64,000 bases of DNA from a bacterium (GTDB taxonomy: Bacteria > Zhuqueibacterota > Zhuqueibacteria > Residuimicrobiales > Krinioviventaceae): the NCBI GenBank assembly GCA_029561455.1, contig JAKQIY010000051.1:1-64000 (forward strand). The letters are read 5' to 3'. The notes under the pieces are model-generated. The model was not told the DNA's origin. It saw only the letters and a program-made list of their open reading frames with translations, and searched no databases. Of this stretch, positions 4,601-15,371 are shown one piece after another (position 1 is the first letter of the stretch; every line of letters starts with the position of its first letter). A program made the position numbers and the translations under genes.

Positions 4601-4628
4601 ATAAAACATGAGAGGTAATTTTTTAAAG

Positions 4629-5093
4629 ATGAAGACAATGACAGATGTAGTTATTGAACAAACAAAGGATACTATACCAATAGATTTACTGCTCTTGTCG
4701 GACCCTTCCGAAGAAGTGATCGCTGAATATATCCATTTGACGATAAAATTTATTGCCAGACTGGATACCAAAATAGTCGGCGCCCTGTTATTGCTAAAGA
4801 CAAGACCAAAAACTATGGAAATTATGAACATATCTGTCTATGAGGAATATCAGAATAAAGGTATTGGCAGGCAACTCATTAATAAAGCAATCGAATATGC
4901 CAAAGAAAACAAAATAAAAACCCTGGAAATTGGCACAGGGAATCCCGGAGTAATACAAATGATGCTGTATCAAAAATGTGGATTCAGAATCGTTGGCGTA
5001 GAGCTCGACTATTTTAGGAAAAATCACCAGGAAAAAATATTTGAAAATGGTATTGAATGTAGAGATATGATAAGAATGAGAATGGAATTTTAA
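4629..5093 (+). CDS. GNAT family N-acetyltransferase
   Basis: About 154 residues. The acetyl-CoA-binding motif A is visible as QNKGIGRQL after a beta strand (MNISVYEEY), followed by the usual helix and a C-terminal YQKCGFRIVG strand pattern. The substrate cannot be told. ATG 4629 has GAGGT 12 nt upstream; ATG 4608 would add seven residues but has no RBS. The stop codon TAA overlaps the start of an attC-like palindrome, as in integron cassettes. It is a different GNAT from the duplicated pair at 10370 and 14898. Confidence 0.85.
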   Translation: MKTMTDVVIEQTKDTIPIDLLLLSDPSEEVIAEYIHLTIKFIARLDTKIVGALLLLKTRPKTMEIMNISVYEEYQNKGIGRQLINKAIEYAKENKIKTLEIGTGNPGVIQMMLYQKCGFRIVGVELDYFRKNHQEKIFENGIECRDMIRMRMEF

Positions 5094-5192
5094 CATAACA
5101 CTCGCTTGGACCAGATTCGGCGCCCTGAAGCCTTGTCCTGCCGATGCACACCAGGAAACACAGGCGCCTTGCAGGGTAAGCGTTTGTTAGCA
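5088..5192 (+). other. attC-like imperfect palindrome
   Basis: The left arm TTTTAACATAACACTCGCTT begins at the stop of the acetyltransferase. The complement of the right arm reads TGCTAACAAACGCTTACCC and ends at GTTAGCA (5186-5192). Inner GGCGCC blocks sit at 5119 and 5163. Size (about 105 nt), orientation (gene then site) and TAACAAACGC-type arm fit integron attC sites. The outer boxes deviate from RYYYAAC/GTTRRRY, and the arms are unequal (28 against 21 nt), so this is tentative. Confidence 0.4.
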
Positions 5193-5215
5193 GATGAAAA
5201 ATTAAAGTGCGATAT

Positions 5216-5866
5216 ATGGATTCAGATAAAAATAAAAAGATTACGCGAAGAAGGTTTGTTCAAGGCCTGGCCGGCGCTTGTTATGCCTGTCTTGCATTGG
5301 ATTCTCCGGCAACCGCGGCAGAACAAGAAAAAGATATAATCATAGACAACAAGGGCAAAGTCCATTTGGCCGCCGCATGCGGCACCTATTGCGGCGCCTG
5401 TCCGGCTTATCTCGCTAAACACGGCGATGCTGAGTATATAAAAATGCGACAGCAAAAGAGATCTTCATCCGGGCCGACACAGGCGCAAAAGGGCATTCCG
5501 CCATCAAATTGGATGGATGGCCTGCTGTGCGACGGCTGTTGCAGCGGCGGTGAGCTTGCCGGCCATTGCCAACACTGCGCGATCAGGAAATGTGCAGAGG
5601 CCAAACAGAACGGCGCCCGTTGTACTGACTGTAAAGAGTTACCCTGCGCTCGTATTAACAATTTAATCAATATGGGCCATTATTTTCACCGTAATGAATA
5701 CCTGCCAAACCTTGAAAAAATTCGCGAGATGGGCGTACAGAAATGGGCTGAATACGAACAAGAGCGCTGGCGTTGTCCCAGGTGCGGCTTGCCGATGAGC
5801 TGGTATGATGCGGAATGCGTCGGCTGTGGGGAACCAAGGTCAGAACGCCTGTTTCCACTGTCTTGA
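5216..5866 (+). CDS. Tat-signal DUF3795 cysteine-rich protein
   Basis: 216 residues from ATG 5216. An N-terminal TRRRFVQG twin-arginine motif (10-17) precedes a hydrophobic stretch and an AxA-like cut near residue 35. The DUF3795 hallmark CGTYCGACPAY lies at 55-65, with further Cys clusters at 105-109, 118-126 and 136-144. A C-terminal CxxC...CxxC zinc-ribbon-like pair follows at 187-204. This many Cys suggests metal or Fe-S binding; the function of the family is not established. No good RBS is seen, and ATG 5207 is an alternative. Export by Tat would fit a cofactor loaded in the cytoplasm. Confidence 0.8.
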   Translation: MDSDKNKKITRRRFVQGLAGACYACLALDSPATAAEQEKDIIIDNKGKVHLAAACGTYCGACPAYLAKHGDAEYIKMRQQKRSSSGPTQAQKGIPPSNWMDGLLCDGCCSGGELAGHCQHCAIRKCAEAKQNGARCTDCKELPCARINNLINMGHYFHRNEYLPNLEKIREMGVQKWAEYEQERWRCPRCGLPMSWYDAECVGCGEPRSERLFPLS

Positions 5867-5881
5867 ATAAAATCCAATAAT

Positions 5882-6215
5882 TGCTCGACCTGGGACAAAG
5901 TTCCGCCACGGGCAGAGATGCTCCCCAGGTCGCACATTAAGGCAGGACATGTTGTCCTGCCGGGCCGCAGGCCCGACCTACACACTACCCTTTCGTACTG
6001 CTTAAATGATGGGGTATCAATATTACCTTGACTTTCCAACACGTTGATCCTCTGTAGCGTGTTCGAATCCGCCAAATTTCTAAAAATACCTCATCCTACC
6101 GTCATTATGTAAACCTTAAACCCGCCCTGGCTCCCCATTCGTAATTCGTAATTCGACATTCGTAATTGCTTTTCGTCTCACGTCTCACGTTTGACTTCTG
6201 CCGCCTTATTGGCGA
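5882..6215 (+). repeat. Composite intergenic repeat, copy 4
   Basis: Begins CTCGACCTGGGACAAAG, then the GCAGGAC-ATGTT-GTCCTGC hairpin (5942-5960), GGGCCGCAGGCCC (5962-5974), D block from ATGATGGGGTATCAA (6006), ATTCGTAAT words (6137-6167) and TCTCACGT words (6176-6195). It lacks the CTGATAG words and the promoter-like block. Sequence from 6215 to the next gene is unrelated. Confidence 0.75.
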
Positions 6216-6306
6216 TATTATCATTTTACGCTTTTCCGGGATTTTTCCAGGCAAGGCGCGTGTTCAAGAAACACAAGGTAGACATGTTTTAATAAAGGAG
6301 TAAAAG

Positions 6307-6708
6307 TTGATCTATTATCTCAAACTATACTTTGCGACGCTGGTCATGTTCTTTGCCATTGATATGGTCTGGCTGGTTGTGGTGGCGCGCGCTTTTTATA
6401 AAAAATATCTCGGCTTTATCATGGCTCCCACTCCCAACTGGTCCGCCGCGATCATATTCTATTTGTTGTTCATTCTTGGCATTTTGGTGTTTGTTGTTGC
6501 GCCGGGACTGAAAGCAAACTCGCTCGCATCCACCTTGCTGCATGCAGCTCTTTTTGGGCTCATCACTTATGCTACGTATGACCTGACCAACCTGGCTACA
6601 CTTAAAGACTGGCCTGTTGTTGTAACAATAGTGGATATGATCTGGGGAACAGTTTTGAGCGTGCTGGTCGCTCTTGGCAGCTTTTTCGCCGGCAAGTGGT
6701 TGAGTTAG
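6307..6708 (+). CDS. DUF2177 family membrane protein
   Basis: 133 residues with four hydrophobic segments. The family pattern is recognisable: an N-terminal IDMVWL motif, a central segment ending HAALFGLITYATYDLTN, and a terminal W-D-x-x-W-G-like VDMIWGTVLS. Function is unknown. It starts at TTG 6307, with AAGGAG directly upstream (6295-6300) and no nearby ATG. It is followed by 124 nt containing a 7-bp hairpin (ACATTAA/TTAATGT, 6714-6750) and a 22-codon frame (6739-6807) of doubtful meaning. Confidence 0.85.
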   Translation: MIYYLKLYFATLVMFFAIDMVWLVVVARAFYKKYLGFIMAPTPNWSAAIIFYLLFILGILVFVVAPGLKANSLASTLLHAALFGLITYATYDLTNLATLKDWPVVVTIVDMIWGTVLSVLVALGSFFAGKWLS

Positions 6709-6832
6709 CATAACATTAAAGCTATAATGGAGATAAATATGGTTAATGTCTCGCCGATGACGTACCGGACGCCAGCGAGTCATGCAGATAGTGTAAATTT
6801 AGGATAAACCTGGTACATAAACAAGAGGTTGC

Positions 6833-8611
6833 ATGGAAATTAAATATCTTGACAGCAAACGGTTATACTATGCCTTTTTAGCCGGCGGTGACGCCGTTAT
6901 CAGTAATCAGGATTTTCTGAATAAAATTAACGTATTCCCGGTAGCCGACGCCGATACCGGAACCAATATGGCGTCAACAATGCGCTCGATCGTGGAAGGC
7001 ACACGAATTTATTCATCTTTAAAAGACACTTCCCGCTCCATTGCCGATGCCGCGCTAATGGGCGCACGGGGCAATTCCGGCATTATTTTCGCCCAGTTTG
7101 TACATGGTTTGAGTACGGAAATCCAGCCGGAAAAGCGTATCCGCGCCGAAAAACTCGCTTGCTATATCAAAAAGGCCGTCGGCTATGCGTATGAATCAAT
7201 CCTGGAGCCCGTAGAAGGAACCATGCTCACGGTGATGAAAGATTGGGCGTTATCTCTGGAAGAAATCACCAAAAAAAGCACTGACCTGGTGCAGATTTTA
7301 CATCACTCTTTTAATGCGGCGCAGCAATCCCTGGCTGCAACTCCCCGTAAACTTAAAATACTCGCCGAAAACGGAGTAGTAGACGCCGGCGCCAGGGGAT
7401 TTGTAGATTTTCTGGAAGGAATTATTAAATTTATCTCTCATGGACAATTAAAGGACTTGTCAAAAAAAACCTTAATATGGCTTGATTCGGAAATTCATAC
7501 TGCCATGAATTCAGCAGCTGTACAATACAGATATTGCTGCGAAGCAATTATCACCCAAAGCAAGCTGACCGGCAAAGATATGCAAATACAATTATCTGAT
7601 TATGGCGACTCGTTGGTGGTTGCGGGGTCTACAGAAAAATTACACCTGCATATTCACACCAACCAACCCGCCGAGTTGTTCTATAAAATCAAAAATGACG
7701 GGGACATCGCCCAGATCAAAGTCGATGATATGATGCAGCAATTTGAAGTGAGCCATGCCCGCAAATATCCCATCGCCCTTGTAACGGATACCGCTTGCGA
7801 TCTCCCTGATGAATTTGTCAAAAAGCATCAGATTCATTTGCTTCCCTTTCAAATCTCCTTTGGCAACAACCTGTTTCTCGATAAAGTGACGATCACAGCC
7901 GATCAGTTTTATGAAATGCTGAAAACTGAAAAGCATCACCCCAAGACGGCGCAGCCAATTCAAAAAAACATTCAAAATCTCTTTGCCTTTTTAACCAGCC
8001 ATTACGAATCGGTGATTGCCGTTCATATTTCCGATAAACTGAGCGGCGTCTTTCAACAAAGCCTGATGGCGGGAAATAAAATAAAGAACAAACCCGTCAC
8101 AGTTATCAATTCCCGGCAGTTGTCTGTTTCAGAAGGACTGGTGGTCATGCGCATTGCCCAGGCTATCGAGGCGGGGTTGCCGTACAATGATATTATTGCC
8201 AAAGCCAATGAGTGGATTGATAAAACCAGTATTCTTGTCGATATTAATACGCTCAAATATATGGTGCGCGGCGGCAGAGTGAGTCCTTTGCAAGGCATGA
8301 TTGCAAAATTATTAAACCTGAAACCGATTATCAGTCTCGATTCTGAAGGCAAAGCCGCCGCCCTGGGCAAATCGTTCAGCCGTAAGGCCAATATGGAAAA
8401 GATCATCACGATCATTGCAGATATGCACAAAAAGGGAAAAATCTGGAACTATGCGATTGTTCACTCCCAGGCTGAGGAACGAGCGAATGTTTATGCCGAC
8501 CAATTAACCGGCATGCTGGGCGCTCCACCGGCATACATTATGAATATATCGCCGGTGGTCGGCGTGCACAACGGTATTGGCGCCCTGGCTGTTGGGATCA
8601 TGTATCAATAG
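6833..8611 (+). CDS. DAK2 (FakA-like) and DegV (FakB-like) fusion protein
   Basis: 592 residues. The N-terminal DhaL/DAK2 kinase domain has NVFPVADADTGTNM (33-46), with Asp residues for Mg-ATP, and MGARGNSGII (76-85). From about residue 312 a DegV fold begins with ALVTDTACDLP, the fatty-acid-binding domain type. In Firmicutes, FakA phosphorylates fatty acids held by a separate FakB; here the two activities lie in one chain, so an in-cis fatty acid kinase for taking up exogenous fatty acids is inferred. AAGAGG precedes the ATG. The DUF1295 gene starts 11 nt downstream. Confidence 0.88.
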   Translation: MEIKYLDSKRLYYAFLAGGDAVISNQDFLNKINVFPVADADTGTNMASTMRSIVEGTRIYSSLKDTSRSIADAALMGARGNSGIIFAQFVHGLSTEIQPEKRIRAEKLACYIKKAVGYAYESILEPVEGTMLTVMKDWALSLEEITKKSTDLVQILHHSFNAAQQSLAATPRKLKILAENGVVDAGARGFVDFLEGIIKFISHGQLKDLSKKTLIWLDSEIHTAMNSAAVQYRYCCEAIITQSKLTGKDMQIQLSDYGDSLVVAGSTEKLHLHIHTNQPAELFYKIKNDGDIAQIKVDDMMQQFEVSHARKYPIALVTDTACDLPDEFVKKHQIHLLPFQISFGNNLFLDKVTITADQFYEMLKTEKHHPKTAQPIQKNIQNLFAFLTSHYESVIAVHISDKLSGVFQQSLMAGNKIKNKPVTVINSRQLSVSEGLVVMRIAQAIEAGLPYNDIIAKANEWIDKTSILVDINTLKYMVRGGRVSPLQGMIAKLLNLKPIISLDSEGKAAALGKSFSRKANMEKIITIIADMHKKGKIWNYAIVHSQAEERANVYADQLTGMLGAPPAYIMNISPVVGVHNGIGALAVGIMYQ

Positions 8612-8622
8612 GAGAGCAATGA

Positions 8623-9393
8623 ATGATCGCATCAATTTTATATGCCGCAATTGCCGTTTTTTTCTTTATGACGGCCTGGTTTATAGCCGCCATTGTTAAA
8701 AAAGATAACAGCATCGTCGACATTGCCTGGGGATTGGGCTTTGTGGTGATCGCTTGCGTCGCGTTTGTTAACAGTCAGGCCTGTACCGGCCGGCAACTGC
8801 TCATTACTGCGTTAATCGCCATCTGGGCAATCAGACTGGCCGGGCATATTGCTATTCGCAAAATCGGGCATGGCGAAGATTTTCGCTATGTTAAAATGCG
8901 TCAAGCCTGGGGCAACAGAGTGATCAGCAAATCTTTTATCAATATCTTTATGTTGCAGGGTATTCTGTTGTTGATAATCGCTTATCCGGTTATACTGGTA
9001 AACAATACCTATCAAAAACCATTAAATACATTAGACTATCTGGGCATCCTGGTATGGCTGACTGGTTTTTTCTTTGAATCTGTCGGGGATTATCAATTGT
9101 TCAAATTTAAAAAAGAGCGCGCCAATAAAGGCAAGATCATAACAACAGGCTTGTGGAAATACACCCGCCATCCCAATTACTTTGGCGAAGTAACACTATG
9201 GTGGGGTATTTTCCTGTTCGCCCTGTCATCCTCCTATGGATTTACAGCTATCATAAGCCCGGCGCTGATCACCTTTCTGTTGCTCAAAGTATCCGGAGTG
9301 CCTTTGCTGGAAAAGAAATACCAGGATAATCCCGAATTTATTGAATATGCCAAAAAAACCAGCAGCTTTTTCCCCCGGCGTCCGCGTTCATAA
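8623..9393 (+). CDS. DUF1295 / steroid 5-alpha-reductase-like membrane protein
   Basis: 256 residues, about six membrane segments. The motif [15 protein letters not shown] near residue 184 is the conserved NADPH-binding stretch of the DUF1295 / isoprenylcysteine methyltransferase-like superfamily, and [11 protein letters not shown] (31-41) is typical of DUF1295. The substrate is unknown. It lies 11 nt after the fatty acid kinase fusion, with GGAGAG as RBS, so co-transcription and a lipid-related role are plausible. GC content is higher than in the AT-rich cassettes. Confidence 0.88.
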
Positions 9394-9429
9394 CGCGCTA
9401 AAACCTATGGCGGGCAGGAGGCTTAAACT

Positions 9430-9740
9430 ATAATTATTCGGCTGTTTAAATGATAAAGGTTCTGTATTGCTATGAATTTATTACAGCTTGATCCGATACA
9501 GCAATTTCAAATCCACTAAATTCCCCAAGCCACCATCCTGCCGCTTTTTGTAAACCTTAAACCCGTTCTCCCCCCATTCGTCATTCGTAATTGTTTTTCG
9601 TCTCACTTTTCACGTTTGACGTTTCACTTCCAACGGCTGATAGCTGACAACTTTTTCCCAAAATATCTCTTGCATTTACCTGAAAAATTTGTTTCTTTAT
9701 ACCGCCATTCGCTATGGATTATACACCCCGGGCGGCGGGA
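9430..9740 (+). repeat. Composite intergenic repeat, copy 5
   Basis: D block from AAATGATAAAGGTTCTGTATTG (9447), ATTCGTCATTCGTAATT words (9577-9593), TCTCACTTTTCACGTTTGACG words (9600-9630), a single CTGATAGCTGA word (9637), then the promoter-like block with TTGCAT at 9671-9676 and TTATAC at 9697. It ends CCCCGGGCGGCGGG, the subtype without integrase remnant, just like copy 3. Confidence 0.78.
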
Positions 9741-9788
9741 ATATATCATATTTAATTGATAAAGTTTTTGCATTATAAGGAGATGAAC

Positions 9789-10238
9789 ATGAAATTGGTT
9801 ACCATAGATAAAAAAAGGATCAGCGGATTACTTGCCCGGACAACAAATGCAAAAGAAATGAACCCCGCTACCGGTAAAATTGGAGCTTTATGGAAAGAAT
9901 TCGATGAACAAGTTAGAGTGGATTATAAAAATGGCAATCGCGTTTATGCTGTTTATTTTGATTACGAGTCGGATGTAACCGGCGAGTATTCAGTCCTGGC
10001 AGGGACAGATCAGCTTGATGCCCTTGCAACAACTAAACTTGAAACAATCACTATACAAAGCGGCAAGTACCTCCAATTCACAGCCAAAGGCGACATTCCG
10101 AAAATCGTATTGGATACATGGGCAAAAGTATGGGAATATTTTTCAAAAAAGGACGCCGAATACGAACGTGCATATACAACAGATTACGAGTACTATAAAA
10201 GTCAGAATGAAATAGAAATTTACATTGCCGTTAAATAA
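9789..10238 (+). CDS. GyrI-like effector-binding domain protein
   Basis: 149 residues from ATG 9789, chosen because AAGGAG (9777-9782) is 6 nt upstream. It is a single GyrI-like / AraC effector-binding fold: duplicated beta-alpha-beta-beta pattern, with VYAVYFDYESDVTGEYSVLAG mid-protein and a C-terminal EIEIYIAVK strand. There is no DNA-binding domain, so it resembles the stand-alone members that bind small molecules or hydrolyse them (SbmC/cyclopropanoid hydrolase-like). The particular ligand is not predictable. Confidence 0.82.
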   Translation: MKLVTIDKKRISGLLARTTNAKEMNPATGKIGALWKEFDEQVRVDYKNGNRVYAVYFDYESDVTGEYSVLAGTDQLDALATTKLETITIQSGKYLQFTAKGDIPKIVLDTWAKVWEYFSKKDAEYERAYTTDYEYYKSQNEIEIYIAVK

Positions 10239-10243
10239 GCAAA

Positions 10244-10302
10244 TGCGCCGGGGTAATACCCCGGTCACTGTTCCGCCCGGCCTGGATATATCGGACGATG
10301 TG
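10244..10302. repeat. Hairpin element A, partial copy
   Basis: CCGGGGTAATACCCCGG (10247-10263) followed by GCCCGG...TATATCGGACGATGTGAG, the end of element A. The same tail (GGATATA...CAATGTGAGAAATAT) precedes the second copy of the acetyltransferase near 14811, so this is part of the duplicated unit. The first hairpin lies right after the GyrI stop and could aid termination. Confidence 0.6.
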
Positions 10303-10369
10303 AGAAATATGCAAAAAAGCAGGACGCCATTATTGATTTTTGGTAATCGCACATAATAAGGATAGATAA

Positions 10370-10837
10370 TTGGACAACTTGTCAATAGTCAATTTTAAAA
10401 ATTACCCTTTGGGGATAGAAAAGGCCATAAACTATTATCATAGCAAGTGGGGTTCTGCTGAAAACCATGCGTTTTTTTATGACATCATTTTTCATTCATC
10501 AAATAATAAAATGGGCTTACCCAGATTTTTCCTTTTAACCAGAGCAGAAGAGATAATTGGTTGCATTGGTTTATCCCCATTTGATTTTATAAGTAGAGCC
10601 GATTTGACACCCTGGCTGGTTGGTCTTTTCATTGAAAAAGAATACCGCGGCAAAAACCTGGGGAATCATTTGATGACCCATGTGGAAAAAGAGGCAAAAA
10701 ATATGGGATATAAAAATTTGTACCTCACTACAGATCATATTGCTTATTACGAAAAATACGGCTGGATAAGAATAGAAGACGGCATAGATTTATTTTCAGG
10801 AAGACAATCCAGAATTTATATAAAGCATCTGGAATAG
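10370..10837 (+). CDS. GNAT family N-acetyltransferase, paralogue 1
   Basis: 155 residues. Motif A is EYRGKNLGNHL; YYEKYGW near the C-terminus is the usual GNAT motif B end. It starts at TTG 10370 (no ATG is available in frame near AAGGAT). It is nearly identical to 14898-15371, with the same TTG start and similar flanking DNA on both sides, so the pair arose by duplication of a whole cassette. The substrate is unknown. Confidence 0.85.
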   Translation: MDNLSIVNFKNYPLGIEKAINYYHSKWGSAENHAFFYDIIFHSSNNKMGLPRFFLLTRAEEIIGCIGLSPFDFISRADLTPWLVGLFIEKEYRGKNLGNHLMTHVEKEAKNMGYKNLYLTTDHIAYYEKYGWIRIEDGIDLFSGRQSRIYIKHLE

Positions 10838-10844
10838 AACGTAG

Positions 10845-11175
10845 CTGCCCGAATGATAGGGTATATATCACCATGAATTTTCTACACCGTGATATGTCGC
10901 AGCGAACTCTAACCCTGCAAATTACCGAAAAAACCCCATCCTGCTAACTTTATGCAAACCTCAAACCCGACTTATCATTTATTCGTAATTCGTAATTCGA
11001 CATTCGTAATTGATTTTCGTCTCACGTTTGACGTTTTATCTCTGTCTGCTGATAGCTGACAACTGACAGCTTTTTTTCTAAATATTTCTTGCATCTTTCC
11101 ACAAAAGTTCATTACTTCTACTGCCATTCGATAAGGATTTCTATGACATGGGTTCGGCGGGATTTTCTTGTTTAT
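10845..11175 (+). repeat. Composite intergenic repeat, copy 6
   Basis: D block from GAATGATAGGGTATATATC (10850), ATTCGTAATTCGTAATTCG words (10981-11010), TCTCACGTTTGACG words, CTGATAGCTGACAACTGACAG (11049-11070), then the promoter-like block (TTGCAT at 11090-11095). It ends in GACATGGGTTCGGCGGG, the subtype leading into an integrase remnant. Up to the ATTCGTAATTG words (about 11011) it is nearly the same as copy 7. Confidence 0.78.
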
Positions 11176-11224
11176 TATTTGCTAAAAAATTTTGTACGGA
11201 TTTTGACAAGAGATGGCCATTGTT

Positions 11225-11365
11225 AAGGAGAGATTCATTTTACAATCAAAACCAAAATTAAAAAAGCAGGTCCTGGCTTCGATTCGGTCAAAGAACTTTA
11301 GTTTTTACTTGTTTGAAAAAACCACCTCTGTTTCTTTGAAAACAAATCGGCAGAGAATAACATGT
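11225..11365 (+). pseudogene. Decayed integrase N-terminus (copy 2)
   Basis: RBS-like AAGGAGAGA (11225-11233), then ATT (11237) in the start position, then a frame reading LQSKPKLKKQVLASIRSKNF and on to SFY, open to a TAG at 11363. It keeps the PKLxxQVxxxIRSKxxS pattern of integron-type integrases. After about residue 24 the frame no longer resembles an integrase, and that junction is shared with copy 1. The remaining leader to 11577 holds only weak signals. Confidence 0.55.
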
Positions 11366-11577
11366 TAGATTTACACTTTGGGCAGAAAGGTGAAATACTT
11401 TTTTTGTAAATAACTATTTGTACTATAATAAATACTGTTGGTTTAGTGAAACTATAAAAGCCGATCAATGACTGAAAAAGGAGCTTTGTAAAATATCTAT
11501 TTGATGCCAACCAGTCCATGGCGTCAGTATCCGTACCGGATAGAGCAGTAAAAGCATTGAAGGAGTATAAAAAAGCA

Positions 11578-14490
11578 ATGGATACTAGTAAAAAGAAAAT
11601 CCTGCTGGTAGAAGACGAACCACTCATTGCTATGAGTGAAGCAATGATGCTACGCAAAGAAGGATACGAAGTTGTGCTGGCAGCCAGCGGCGAGGAGGCA
11701 CTTGCCAAAGCCAACGCTATGGATTCAAAGATTGCGCTCATTCTGATGGATATTGACCTGGGGAAAGACCGGATGGATGGCACTCAGACTGCCCAGGAAA
11801 TCCTGACAGTGCATGATATTCCCATCCTGTTCCTTTCCTCCCATACCGAGCCGGAAGTGGTGGCCAAAACTGAGAAAATTACCTCCTACGGTTATGTGGT
11901 AAAGAACACGGGAATCACGGTGCTGGCAGCCTCTATCAAGATGGCGTTCAAGTTGCACGCCGCGCAACAGACTATCACGCTCGTTAATGAAAATCTGAGA
12001 CTAGCCCAGGAAGCCAGCCGCGCCGGTGCGTGGGATTGGGATATTGTCCACAACACCTTCCATTGGTCGCCGGAATTTTTGAAAGTCTTTGGACTGCCCG
12101 CCAATACGGTTGCCGGGTTTGAAGCCTGGACCCAGGCCGTCTATCCTGACGACCGGGAAATGGCTGGACGCAAAATCCAGGAGGCGATTAATAACCATAC
12201 GGACCTGGTGAATGATTACCGGATAGCGCTGCCCGATGGCGCAATTCGCTGGATTAGGGCAACCGGTAAGACTTATTACCAGAACGACCAGCCACAACGA
12301 ATGATTGGCCTGTGCATGGACATCACCGAGCGCAAGCAAACCGAGGATAATCTCCGGGCAAGTGAAGAACTTTTCCGTTCTATACAGGATAACTCCCTTG
12401 ACCGTTTCACGATTCTTAAACCGGTCCGCAATGATCATGGTGAAATCATCGATTTTATATATCTCTATCAAAATGCCATGGCTGCCAGTCTCACGGGACG
12501 CCGACCAGAGGAACTTGTCGGCCAGCGCATGACCGAGATCTGGCCTGCGTTTCCCAGCACACATTTTTTCGAGTTATACAAGCAGGTAGCGGAAACCGGT
12601 CAGGGAACAACATTCGAAGATCACTATTCTGCGGATGGCATCGACGAGTGGTTTCGGGTCACGGTAACACCGATCCCGGCCGGAGTAGCTATCGCTACGC
12701 AAATCATTACTGAGCGCAAGCTCGCGGAAGATGCGCTCAGGGAGCAGGCGCAACTCCTGGACATTTCGCCGCTTTCCATCACAGTACATGATGAGAACGG
12801 CGTCTTTATGTATGCGAACGAGCGGACGTTCGCGATGCATGGATATACCAAAGAAGAATTCATGTCTCTTAACCTCCACCAACTGGACGTGCCTGAGAGC
12901 GAGCGGCTGATATCCGAAAGGATGAAACAGATCGCTGATAAAGGCGAGGCGCTATTCGAGGTACGCCATATCCATAAGGATGGCACCATCTTCCCGCTGG
13001 AGGTTTATGTCAGAAAAGCGGCTTGGTTCGGCAAGCCCGCCATGCTCAGTATTGCAATGAACATCTCCGAGCGCAAGCGCACGGAGGAAGCGCTCAAAGC
13101 GAGTGAGAAACGTTATGAACAGATCGATTCGTCAAGCCGGGACGCTATCTACTCCTATGACCGCCAGGGGCACTTCACCCATGCCAACCGCGCCCTGTGC
13201 ACACTGCTCGGGCTATCTAAGGATCAGATCATCGGCAGAACTCACGAGGAGCTCGGCTTTCCGCAGGCACAGTGTGACGAATGGGCAGCGCTTCATAACG
13301 AGGTATACACCACCGGCGATACCGTGATCCGCGAAACGGCGACACCGATCCAGGGAGGCCCGGTGATGTACTTTGAAGTCATTCTCAACCCGGTCCGCGA
13401 TGCTGGCGGAACAATTACCGGAATCTCCGGCATAACCCGTGACATCACCGAGCGCAAGCGGGCAGAGGAAGATTTACGAAGGAGCCGGGATCTTCTTGAC
13501 ATCACCCAGCGACTCGGCTGGATCGGAGGCTGGGAGTGGGATGTTGAACGACAGACCATGGACTGGACAGACGAGACTTTCCATATCCATGGGATAACGC
13601 CTGGTAATCCTGCGAATGGCTCGCCAGAACTCATCACAAGGAGTCTGGCCTGCTACGACCCTGCCGATCGTCCAATAATCGAGACTTGCTTCGACAGTTG
13701 TGCTACTAAAGGTCTCTCCTACGATATGGAGTTTCCCCTGAACCGGATCGACGGTAGCAGAATATGGATTCGTACCATGGCAATGGCTGTGAAGGAAGGC
13801 GATCGCGTCGTGAAAGTCATCGGTAACATTATAGATATTACCGAACGTAAACGGGCTGAAGGGGAAATCAAAAAGCAACTTGCAGAAAAAGAAACCCTGT
13901 TGCGCGAAGTCCATCACCGCATCAAGAACAATATGGCAAACGTAGAAAGCCTGTTATCATTGCAGGCCGGTTCAATCAAAAGCCCTGAAGCAAAAGCGGT
14001 ATTAAAGGATTCCATTGCCCGCGTTAAAAGTATACGCATTCTTTATGAAAAACTGCTGCTTACTAAAGATTATCATGACATATCCATCAAACCCTATGCT
14101 GAAGATCTTATCGATTCTATTTCCACTGTGTTTGTTATGGAAAAAAAGATTACTATAAAAACGCAGATAATGGAATTCACTATAGATTCTAAAAAGGCAA
14201 TTTCTCTTGGAATAATTATCAATGAACTCCTGACCAATGCTTTTAAATACGCTTTCAAAGACCGGGATAATGGTATTGTGTCAATTTCAATAGAAAAAGC
14301 AGAAAATAGTGTGACACTCATTATTAAAGATAATGGAACCGGCTTTGATCAAAAAACGAGTTCGAATAAATCACCCGGTTTAGGCCTTACTATTGTTAAA
14401 ATGCTTGTGGAACAACTGAAAGGGACATATAGCGTTAAGAATGAAAATGGAACAAAGAGCGTCATCAAATTTGAAATATCGGAAACCTGA
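11578..14490 (+). CDS. Hybrid response-regulator / multi-PAS / HisKA_2 sensor kinase
   Basis: 970 residues, soluble (no membrane segment seen). N-terminal receiver (about 6-125; KILLVEDEPLIAM, LILMDIDLG with the phospho-Asp). Then five PAS/PAC units, most ending in the I-(T/S)-ER-K linker (about 141-265, 268-390, 395-515, 520-645, 650-775). A HisKA_2 dimerisation domain has REVHHRIKNN (His about 779), and HATPase_c follows with NELLTNAFKYAF and DNGTGF. No separate output regulator lies nearby. ATG 11578 starts the receiver cleanly, with AAGGAG 12 nt upstream; ATG 11518 would add 20 residues. The stop codon lies within an attC-like site. Confidence 0.9.
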   Translation: MDTSKKKILLVEDEPLIAMSEAMMLRKEGYEVVLAASGEEALAKANAMDSKIALILMDIDLGKDRMDGTQTAQEILTVHDIPILFLSSHTEPEVVAKTEKITSYGYVVKNTGITVLAASIKMAFKLHAAQQTITLVNENLRLAQEASRAGAWDWDIVHNTFHWSPEFLKVFGLPANTVAGFEAWTQAVYPDDREMAGRKIQEAINNHTDLVNDYRIALPDGAIRWIRATGKTYYQNDQPQRMIGLCMDITERKQTEDNLRASEELFRSIQDNSLDRFTILKPVRNDHGEIIDFIYLYQNAMAASLTGRRPEELVGQRMTEIWPAFPSTHFFELYKQVAETGQGTTFEDHYSADGIDEWFRVTVTPIPAGVAIATQIITERKLAEDALREQAQLLDISPLSITVHDENGVFMYANERTFAMHGYTKEEFMSLNLHQLDVPESERLISERMKQIADKGEALFEVRHIHKDGTIFPLEVYVRKAAWFGKPAMLSIAMNISERKRTEEALKASEKRYEQIDSSSRDAIYSYDRQGHFTHANRALCTLLGLSKDQIIGRTHEELGFPQAQCDEWAALHNEVYTTGDTVIRETATPIQGGPVMYFEVILNPVRDAGGTITGISGITRDITERKRAEEDLRRSRDLLDITQRLGWIGGWEWDVERQTMDWTDETFHIHGITPGNPANGSPELITRSLACYDPADRPIIETCFDSCATKGLSYDMEFPLNRIDGSRIWIRTMAMAVKEGDRVVKVIGNIIDITERKRAEGEIKKQLAEKETLLREVHHRIKNNMANVESLLSLQAGSIKSPEAKAVLKDSIARVKSIRILYEKLLLTKDYHDISIKPYAEDLIDSISTVFVMEKKITIKTQIMEFTIDSKKAISLGIIINELLTNAFKYAFKDRDNGIVSISIEKAENSVTLIIKDNGTGFDQKTSSNKSPGLGLTIVKMLVEQLKGTYSVKNENGTKSVIKFEISET

Positions 14491-14591
14491 CAACTGCTTT
14501 ATCCTGATATCACCCTGTCACGATTTTTGCTATCGCTTTGCACAGCAAGGATCGTGATTGGTACATGTTGCTGGTTAATTAAAGGTTAGGC
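14485..14591 (+). other. attC-like site after the sensor kinase
   Basis: ACCTGAC (14485-14491, one mismatch to RYYYAAC) overlaps the TGA stop. GTTAGGC (14585-14591) matches GTTRRRY exactly. Between them TCACGATTTTTGCT (14518-14531) pairs with AGCAAGGATCGTGA (14544-14557) over 14 positions with two G-U pairs and a 12-nt loop. The outer arms are 33 and 34 nt, almost exactly symmetrical. Size, symmetry, orientation and box sequences fit an integron attC. Only a fold and a model search can confirm it. Confidence 0.55.
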
Positions 14592-14707: not shown

Positions 14708-14830
14708 TTCACCCCCTAACGGGGTTTGCCGATATAGATCACACCGGACATTCGTCCTGTGCGGGTGGCAAGACAGGATATTTATCCGGTTAATTACCAA
14801 AGGCGCTGTCTGGATATACAGGGCAATGTG
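14708..14830. repeat. Hairpin element A, partial copy
   Basis: ACCCC-CTAAC-GGGGT (14711-14725), then CCGGACATTCGTCCTG (14746-14761), AGGATATTTATCC (14776-14788) and TCTGGATATACAGGG. The order matches element A at 1-125 and 30886-31003, though several stems have lost pairs here. ACCCCTAACGGGGT recurs at 30864. The rest of 14592-14897 shows nothing else. Confidence 0.6.
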
Positions 14831-14897
14831 AGAAATATACTTTTAATTATGACACCATTATTGGTTTTTCTTTATTGCCGATAATAAGGATAGAAAA

Positions 14898-15371
14898 TTG
14901 GACAACTTTTCAATAGTCAATTTTAAAAATTACCCTTTGGGGATAGAAAAGGCCATAAACTATTATCATAGCAAGTGGGGATCTGCTGAAAACTATGCTT
15001 TTTTTTATGACATCATTTTTCATTCATCAAATGATATAATGGGTTTACCCAAATTTTTCCTGTTAACCGAAGCAGAAGCAATAATTGGCTGCATTGGTTT
15101 ATCCCCGTTTGATTTTATAAGTAGAGCCGATTTGACACCCTGGCTGGTTGGCCTTTTCATTGAAAAAGAACACCGCGGTAAAAATCTGGGGAATTATTTG
15201 ATGACCCATGTAGAAAAAGAAACAAAAAACATGGGCTATGAAAATTTGTACCTCACCACAGATCACATTGCTTATTACGAAAAATACAGCTGGATAAGAA
15301 TTGAGGATGGCCTAGATTTATTTTCAGGAAAACAATCCAGAATTTACATGAAGCATTTGAATAGAACGTAG
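14898..15371 (+). CDS. GNAT family N-acetyltransferase, paralogue 2
   Basis: 157 residues, TTG start with AAGGAT upstream. It differs from the 10370 copy at roughly one residue in ten (for example HRGKNLGNYL against YRGKNLGNHL), and its last residues change because the frame runs on three codons. Both copies keep an intact frame and the acetyl-CoA motif, so both look functional. The duplication includes the hairpin element before and the D block after. Confidence 0.85.
   Translation: MDNFSIVNFKNYPLGIEKAINYYHSKWGSAENYAFFYDIIFHSSNDIMGLPKFFLLTEAEAIIGCIGLSPFDFISRADLTPWLVGLFIEKEHRGKNLGNYLMTHVEKETKNMGYENLYLTTDHIAYYEKYSWIRIEDGLDLFSGKQSRIYMKHLNRT

Follow-up and report, generated by a model that had tools for sequence, protein, structure and literature searches.

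A probable decayed attC site over the stop codon of a multi-PAS sensor kinase gene

Anatomy of the site

The window analyzed here, positions 1 to 64,000 of the 86-kb contig C13 of a 5.85-Mb draft genome, contains a sensor kinase gene whose stop codon, TGA at 14488-14490, lies inside the first box of a 107-nt site resembling attC, the recombination site of integron gene cassettes. The features of the locus are as follows:

11518-14490, + strand, sensor kinase of 990 aa with a response-regulator (receiver) domain, several PAS domains, HisKA_2 and HATPase
14485-14491, + strand, R'' box ACCTGAC, over the kinase stop codon (consensus RYYYAAC, with AAC changed to GAC)
14501-14508, + strand, L'' box ATCCTGAT, placed by the box profile
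14517-14558, + strand, distal hairpin with a 15-pair stem (two G-T) and a 12-nt loop, in the place of the variable terminal structure of attC
14570-14577, + strand, L' box GCTGGTTA, the same as the L' of the same-genus attC L126 and of L130, L138, and L152
14585-14591, + strand, R' box GTTAGGC (consensus GTTRRRY)

In an intact attC, the bottom strand forms a hairpin in which R'' is paired with R' and L'' with L', and the integrase binds the stem and the extra-helical bases and cuts between the G and the TT of R', the box cleaved by integron integrases. The original prediction had named ACCTGAC at the kinase stop and GTTAGGC as the outer boxes, and both are present, although 93 nt rather than the predicted 94 separate them. 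The 14-bp stem, 12-nt loop, and arms of 33 and 34 nt that it described were also recovered, as an unbroken stem of 14-15 pairs (14517-14531 with 14544-14558) with a 12-nt loop and an arm of about 33 nt on each side. R'' starts at position -6 relative to the end of the same-strand kinase stop codon, placing the site at the 3' end of a gene as in attC, and on the right side L' and R' stand at the canonical distance of an attC right half, GCTGGTTA-N7-GTTAGGC. On the left side, R'' has one mismatch to its consensus, a proper R''/L'' pair at canonical distance was not found, and the L'' box carries two substitutions relative to AACCAGAC or similar, the partner of this L' in real sites. Altogether, around four substitutions separate the left arm from the complement of the right half: a G-to-A and an A-to-G change in R'', and two A-to-T changes in L''.

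The site is unique in the draft genome, and no copy turned up in relatives either, where weak DNA matches of 22-40 nt were seen. Rfam returned no match over its gathering scores at the site, and a plasmid search with the site returned no match. An intrinsic terminator was considered and rejected, as the site has no U-rich tail and the terminator scan was empty. Stems of at least 14 pairs number nine in the window, compared to 0-2 in shuffles, and no surplus of folding was detected behind the stop codons of the window.

Structure-based and sequence-based tests

Two covariance models, R1 and R2, were built from 19 attC sites in integron loci of relatives. R1, run with filters off, was unable to span long sites and missed the textbook attC at C27:27900-28028, so its negative result at the site was set aside, and long loops were allowed in R2. 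R2 scored the two textbook attC sites of contig C27, both held out of training, at 41.5 and 26.6 bits, with no other match in the whole genome, and gave the site 1.5 bits; the covariance search that had been proposed as a check went against the prediction. A hand-made pair-aware score of 8.9 was obtained for the site, and 83% of shuffled windows contain one as good. Training and C27 sites scored at least 41 (34-69 on leave-one-out), and a V. cholerae repeat scored 27.

The R stem of the site is paired at six of seven positions counting wobbles and the L stem at four of six. Enforcing the R/L stem costs 4.9 kcal/mol; among 66 real sites the median cost is 0.35 and the 95th percentile 4.4, and only 2% of them cost as much. 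Single-strand folding, the other proposed check, was likewise negative, with the minimum-energy fold of the bottom strand containing the distal hairpin and unrelated pairs and no R/L stem, that is, without the complementary-arm hairpin (R''/R', L''/L') of attC. Both C27 sites and a second candidate at 5093-5192 folded into the attC-type R stem, spacer, and L stem. The function of attC lies in the folded bottom strand with its extra-helical bases and unpaired spacer (PMC2727003). With this covariance score, this fold cost, and mismatched R/L stems missing from the minimum-energy fold, the site is not the well-formed attC that had been claimed. By looser criteria (one box with a single mismatch, one without any, and at least 12 pairs in the central stem), which gave five matches in 20 shuffled windows and one in the real window, the site is no more than chance.

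An initial view of the locus as ordinary sequence, taken from the pair-aware score, was overturned by a half-site test. The right half, first noticed as an L'-R' pair, is the top of the window by a box profile from 19 sites, and the four-box score of the site by that profile, 28.1, was equalled in 2% of shuffled windows. A larger profile of R'', L'', L', and R' was built from 66 attC sites of relatives and contig C27, with the site itself left out. By this profile the site ranks first in the window at 29.6, followed by 5093-5192 (27.9) and a third position at 20.7. A score of 29.6 was attained in 1 of 400 shuffled windows, a p-value to be read with a penalty as the sequence-only score was tried once the pair-aware score had failed, and 18% of the real attC sites, each left out in turn, fall under it. 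By the 66-site profile, then, the site exceeds chance.

Across 1.31 Mb of the genome, the ranking runs from the two C27 attC sites to the site, 5093-5192, and the tail, and in the 1.25 Mb outside the window, solely the two textbook attC sites match or beat it. Each of these top four sites starts within -6 to +17 nt of a stop codon on its own strand, with lower-ranked ones lying mostly within genes. The right half of the site scores 21.1, against a real-site median of 18.0, and none of 2.36 million background positions is as high. The left half, at 8.4, is under every one of the 66 real attC sites, though at the proper spacing a left half of this quality would arise by chance with a probability of only about 2%. 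The same-genus attC L126, which was absent from the first profile, has L' and R' boxes identical to those of the site. The attC-like character originally noted in box spacing, orientation, and stop-codon position is therefore borne out, with a right half that matches real attC, including one from the same genus. A poor model score together with no similar site elsewhere had been named as the outcome that would speak against attC; the score is poor, no second copy was found in the genome or relatives, and L126 shares the L' and R' boxes.

Integron traces in the genome and relatives

A search of the genome with TIGR02249 (the integron-integrase family) found a C-terminal fragment alone, at C27:24925-25251, covering profile positions 202-314 along with a short piece in another frame. 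The genome holds no full-length integron integrase, and contig C13 has no integrase. The following sites accompany the fragment:

C27:26810-26936, textbook attC, about 1.6 kb downstream of the integrase fragment
C27:27900-28028, textbook attC, on the other side of a 296-aa ORF from the first

The genome therefore has an integron past, as a relic. The stretch C27:24925-28028 (9926-13029 of L023) is an integron relic whose 296-aa ORF has no NCBIfam match. Contig C13 has neither an integrase nor two or more close attC sites, the marks of an integron or a CALIN, and the nearest likely relic, 5093-5192, is 9.3 kb off.

An integrase over the family cut-off is present in 40 of 147 related genomes, and attC matches were found in 40 of 60, often single and on different contigs. 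Lone attC sites are spread over separate contigs in many genomes of the class (e.g., C2, C3, and C5 of G006). This dispersal of single attC sites suggests that lone cassettes outside integrons are frequent in the class.

The sensor kinase

The family of the kinase has 48 matches in its own genome. No close relative of it was found in 40 related genomes or in genome_contigs, and so it may well have been acquired. In the relatives, the kinase region has no shared neighborhood and showed no empty site; G004, the sole relative with a close neighbor gene, does not conserve the neighborhood. Between 5192 and the kinase start, in a scan extended to 11600, no attC or right half-site above 13.4 was found that could serve as a left cassette boundary, and the 680 nt upstream of the kinase consist largely of modules common to many intergenic regions of the genome. 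The original prediction took the site to mark the kinase as a cassette of nearly 3 kb. With no left end, shared upstream modules, a 48-match family, no empty site, and no integrase on the contig, that reading is possible but unsupported.

Two GNAT genes, at 10275-10837 and 14803-15371, flank the kinase and share 87% identity across 300 nt, upstream DNA included. From this similarity, they would be products of a duplication, with the kinase lying between them.

Interpretation

We consider the site at 14485-14591 to be probably a lone and diverged or decayed attC. The sequence-based and structure-based tests agree if it is an attC with an intact right arm and a decayed left one. The roughly four substitutions that set the left arm apart from the complement of the right half weaken the hairpin badly, and since attC sites work as folded bottom strands, such a site would be expected to recombine poorly. 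The site is probably inert, given that the integrase of the genome is truncated. Under the history that we propose, the attC would once have closed an integron gene cassette and persisted across the stop codon of that cassette's final gene, its left half drifting while the right half (L' and R') stayed intact; it may have been left behind by a cassette insertion outside an integron (a SALIN) or by an array that dispersed. That the site descends from a working attC, has lost its function, and arrived by cassette insertion is inferred. Our confidence in the decayed attC is limited mainly by the order of the statistics, the sequence-only one having been adopted once the pair-aware one had failed.

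Chance is a distinctly less probable explanation, under which the kinase transcript would have an ordinary hairpin in its 3' untranslated region, with boxes that resemble R'' and R' by accident. The covariance and pair-aware scores at background level are what chance would give, hairpins are common in the intergenic DNA of the window, and the box-plus-stem criteria are satisfied in about a quarter of shuffled windows. Accident does not readily account, however, for a right half without equal in 2.36 million positions and at canonical spacing, for the best sequence matches of 1.31 Mb all lying at stop codons, or for a scan that yields no terminator-like site.

A working attC with the kinase as a mobile cassette of about 3 kb would fit the intact R' and L', an R'' that overlaps the stop codon as it does in real cassettes, and the absence of the kinase from the same-genus genome and the relatives, but it is very improbable in view of the poor fold and covariance score, the missing left boundary in 5192-11518, the 680 upstream nt shared with other genes, and a genome without a full integrase. 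Equally improbable is a half-site, an attI- or attG-like insertion target of which the L'-R' side alone was ever functional and the hairpin is incidental. An excellent right half beside a left half under all real attC sites is what it predicts, and attG sites, which accept cassettes in genomes, diverge strongly from classical sites (PMC12901181). Against it, the left half is still above chance at that distance and starts exactly at the stop codon as in attC, and no cassette is seen inserted at the site.

As a decayed attC, the site can be set beside the attC of sedentary chromosomal integrons, those on C27 of the same genome and in G001, G006, and G020. It shares with them an R'' over or just behind a same-strand stop codon, the L' and R' boxes and their spacing, the distal hairpin, and a length within the 56-136 nt of known attC in C27 and relatives, but it differs in the GAC of R'', the two L'' substitutions, the four-of-six L stem, the lack of a canonical fold, and a covariance score at noise. 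A SALIN is a single attC lacking an integron integrase (PMC12690207), and IntegronFinder 2 by default needs two attC before an integrase-less cluster is reported (PMC9024848). The site is like a SALIN in being one isolated site behind one gene, with no integrase and no second well-formed attC nearby; it differs in that SALINs are called with the IntegronFinder model, which, judging from our own covariance models, it would probably fail. Entry of cassettes into genomes outside integrons through attG (PMC12901181) could account for a lone cassette, but no insertion junction was seen at the site and no empty site was found.

If the decayed-attC reading is right, traces of integrons outlast the decay of their palindromes and are missed by structure-based finders, and a multi-PAS sensor kinase may once have adjoined a cassette site. 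The understanding of how integrons work is unchanged by the site.

Other candidate sites and modules in the window

The runner-up of the profile is likely a second diverged attC relic:

5093-5192, + strand, candidate attC with attC-type fold, at the stop codon of the GNAT acetyltransferase gene 4608-5093

A further candidate, at 1788-1912, lies 58 nt behind a CAAX-protease gene (843-1730). Its L arms, CAAGTGAC and GCACTTGA, are fully complementary, and its pair-aware score of 33.3 is the best of the window in a box-free scan and above a 465-kb background from the same genome. Counter-signs are an R' of GGTAGCG, a box-profile score of 17.3, and a fold cost of 8.5 kcal/mol, and it is possibly another decayed attC.

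More speculatively, and we think this rather unlikely, the first 15-31 kb of the contig could be the fossil remains of scattered cassettes (those of the GNAT acetyltransferase, the CAAX protease, and the sensor kinase), with attC sites too decayed for covariance models to reach. If so, half-site profiles would uncover many more lost cassettes in such genomes, some of them unusually large.

Elsewhere in the window, a Cass2-family gene (9756-10238; in Pfam, integron-associated effector binding protein) has no attC-like site behind it. Window positions 1-31709 contain about 22 + strand genes in succession, with long intergenic regions of shared modules between them. One module lies at, for example, 221, 4241, 6002, 9440, 10847, and 15376; another, found at 437, 4504, 9660, 11079, 15601, and 23407 among others, holds promoter sequences resembling TTGCAT-N17/18-TATATA. 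One 483-nt stretch has 46 matches across the genome.
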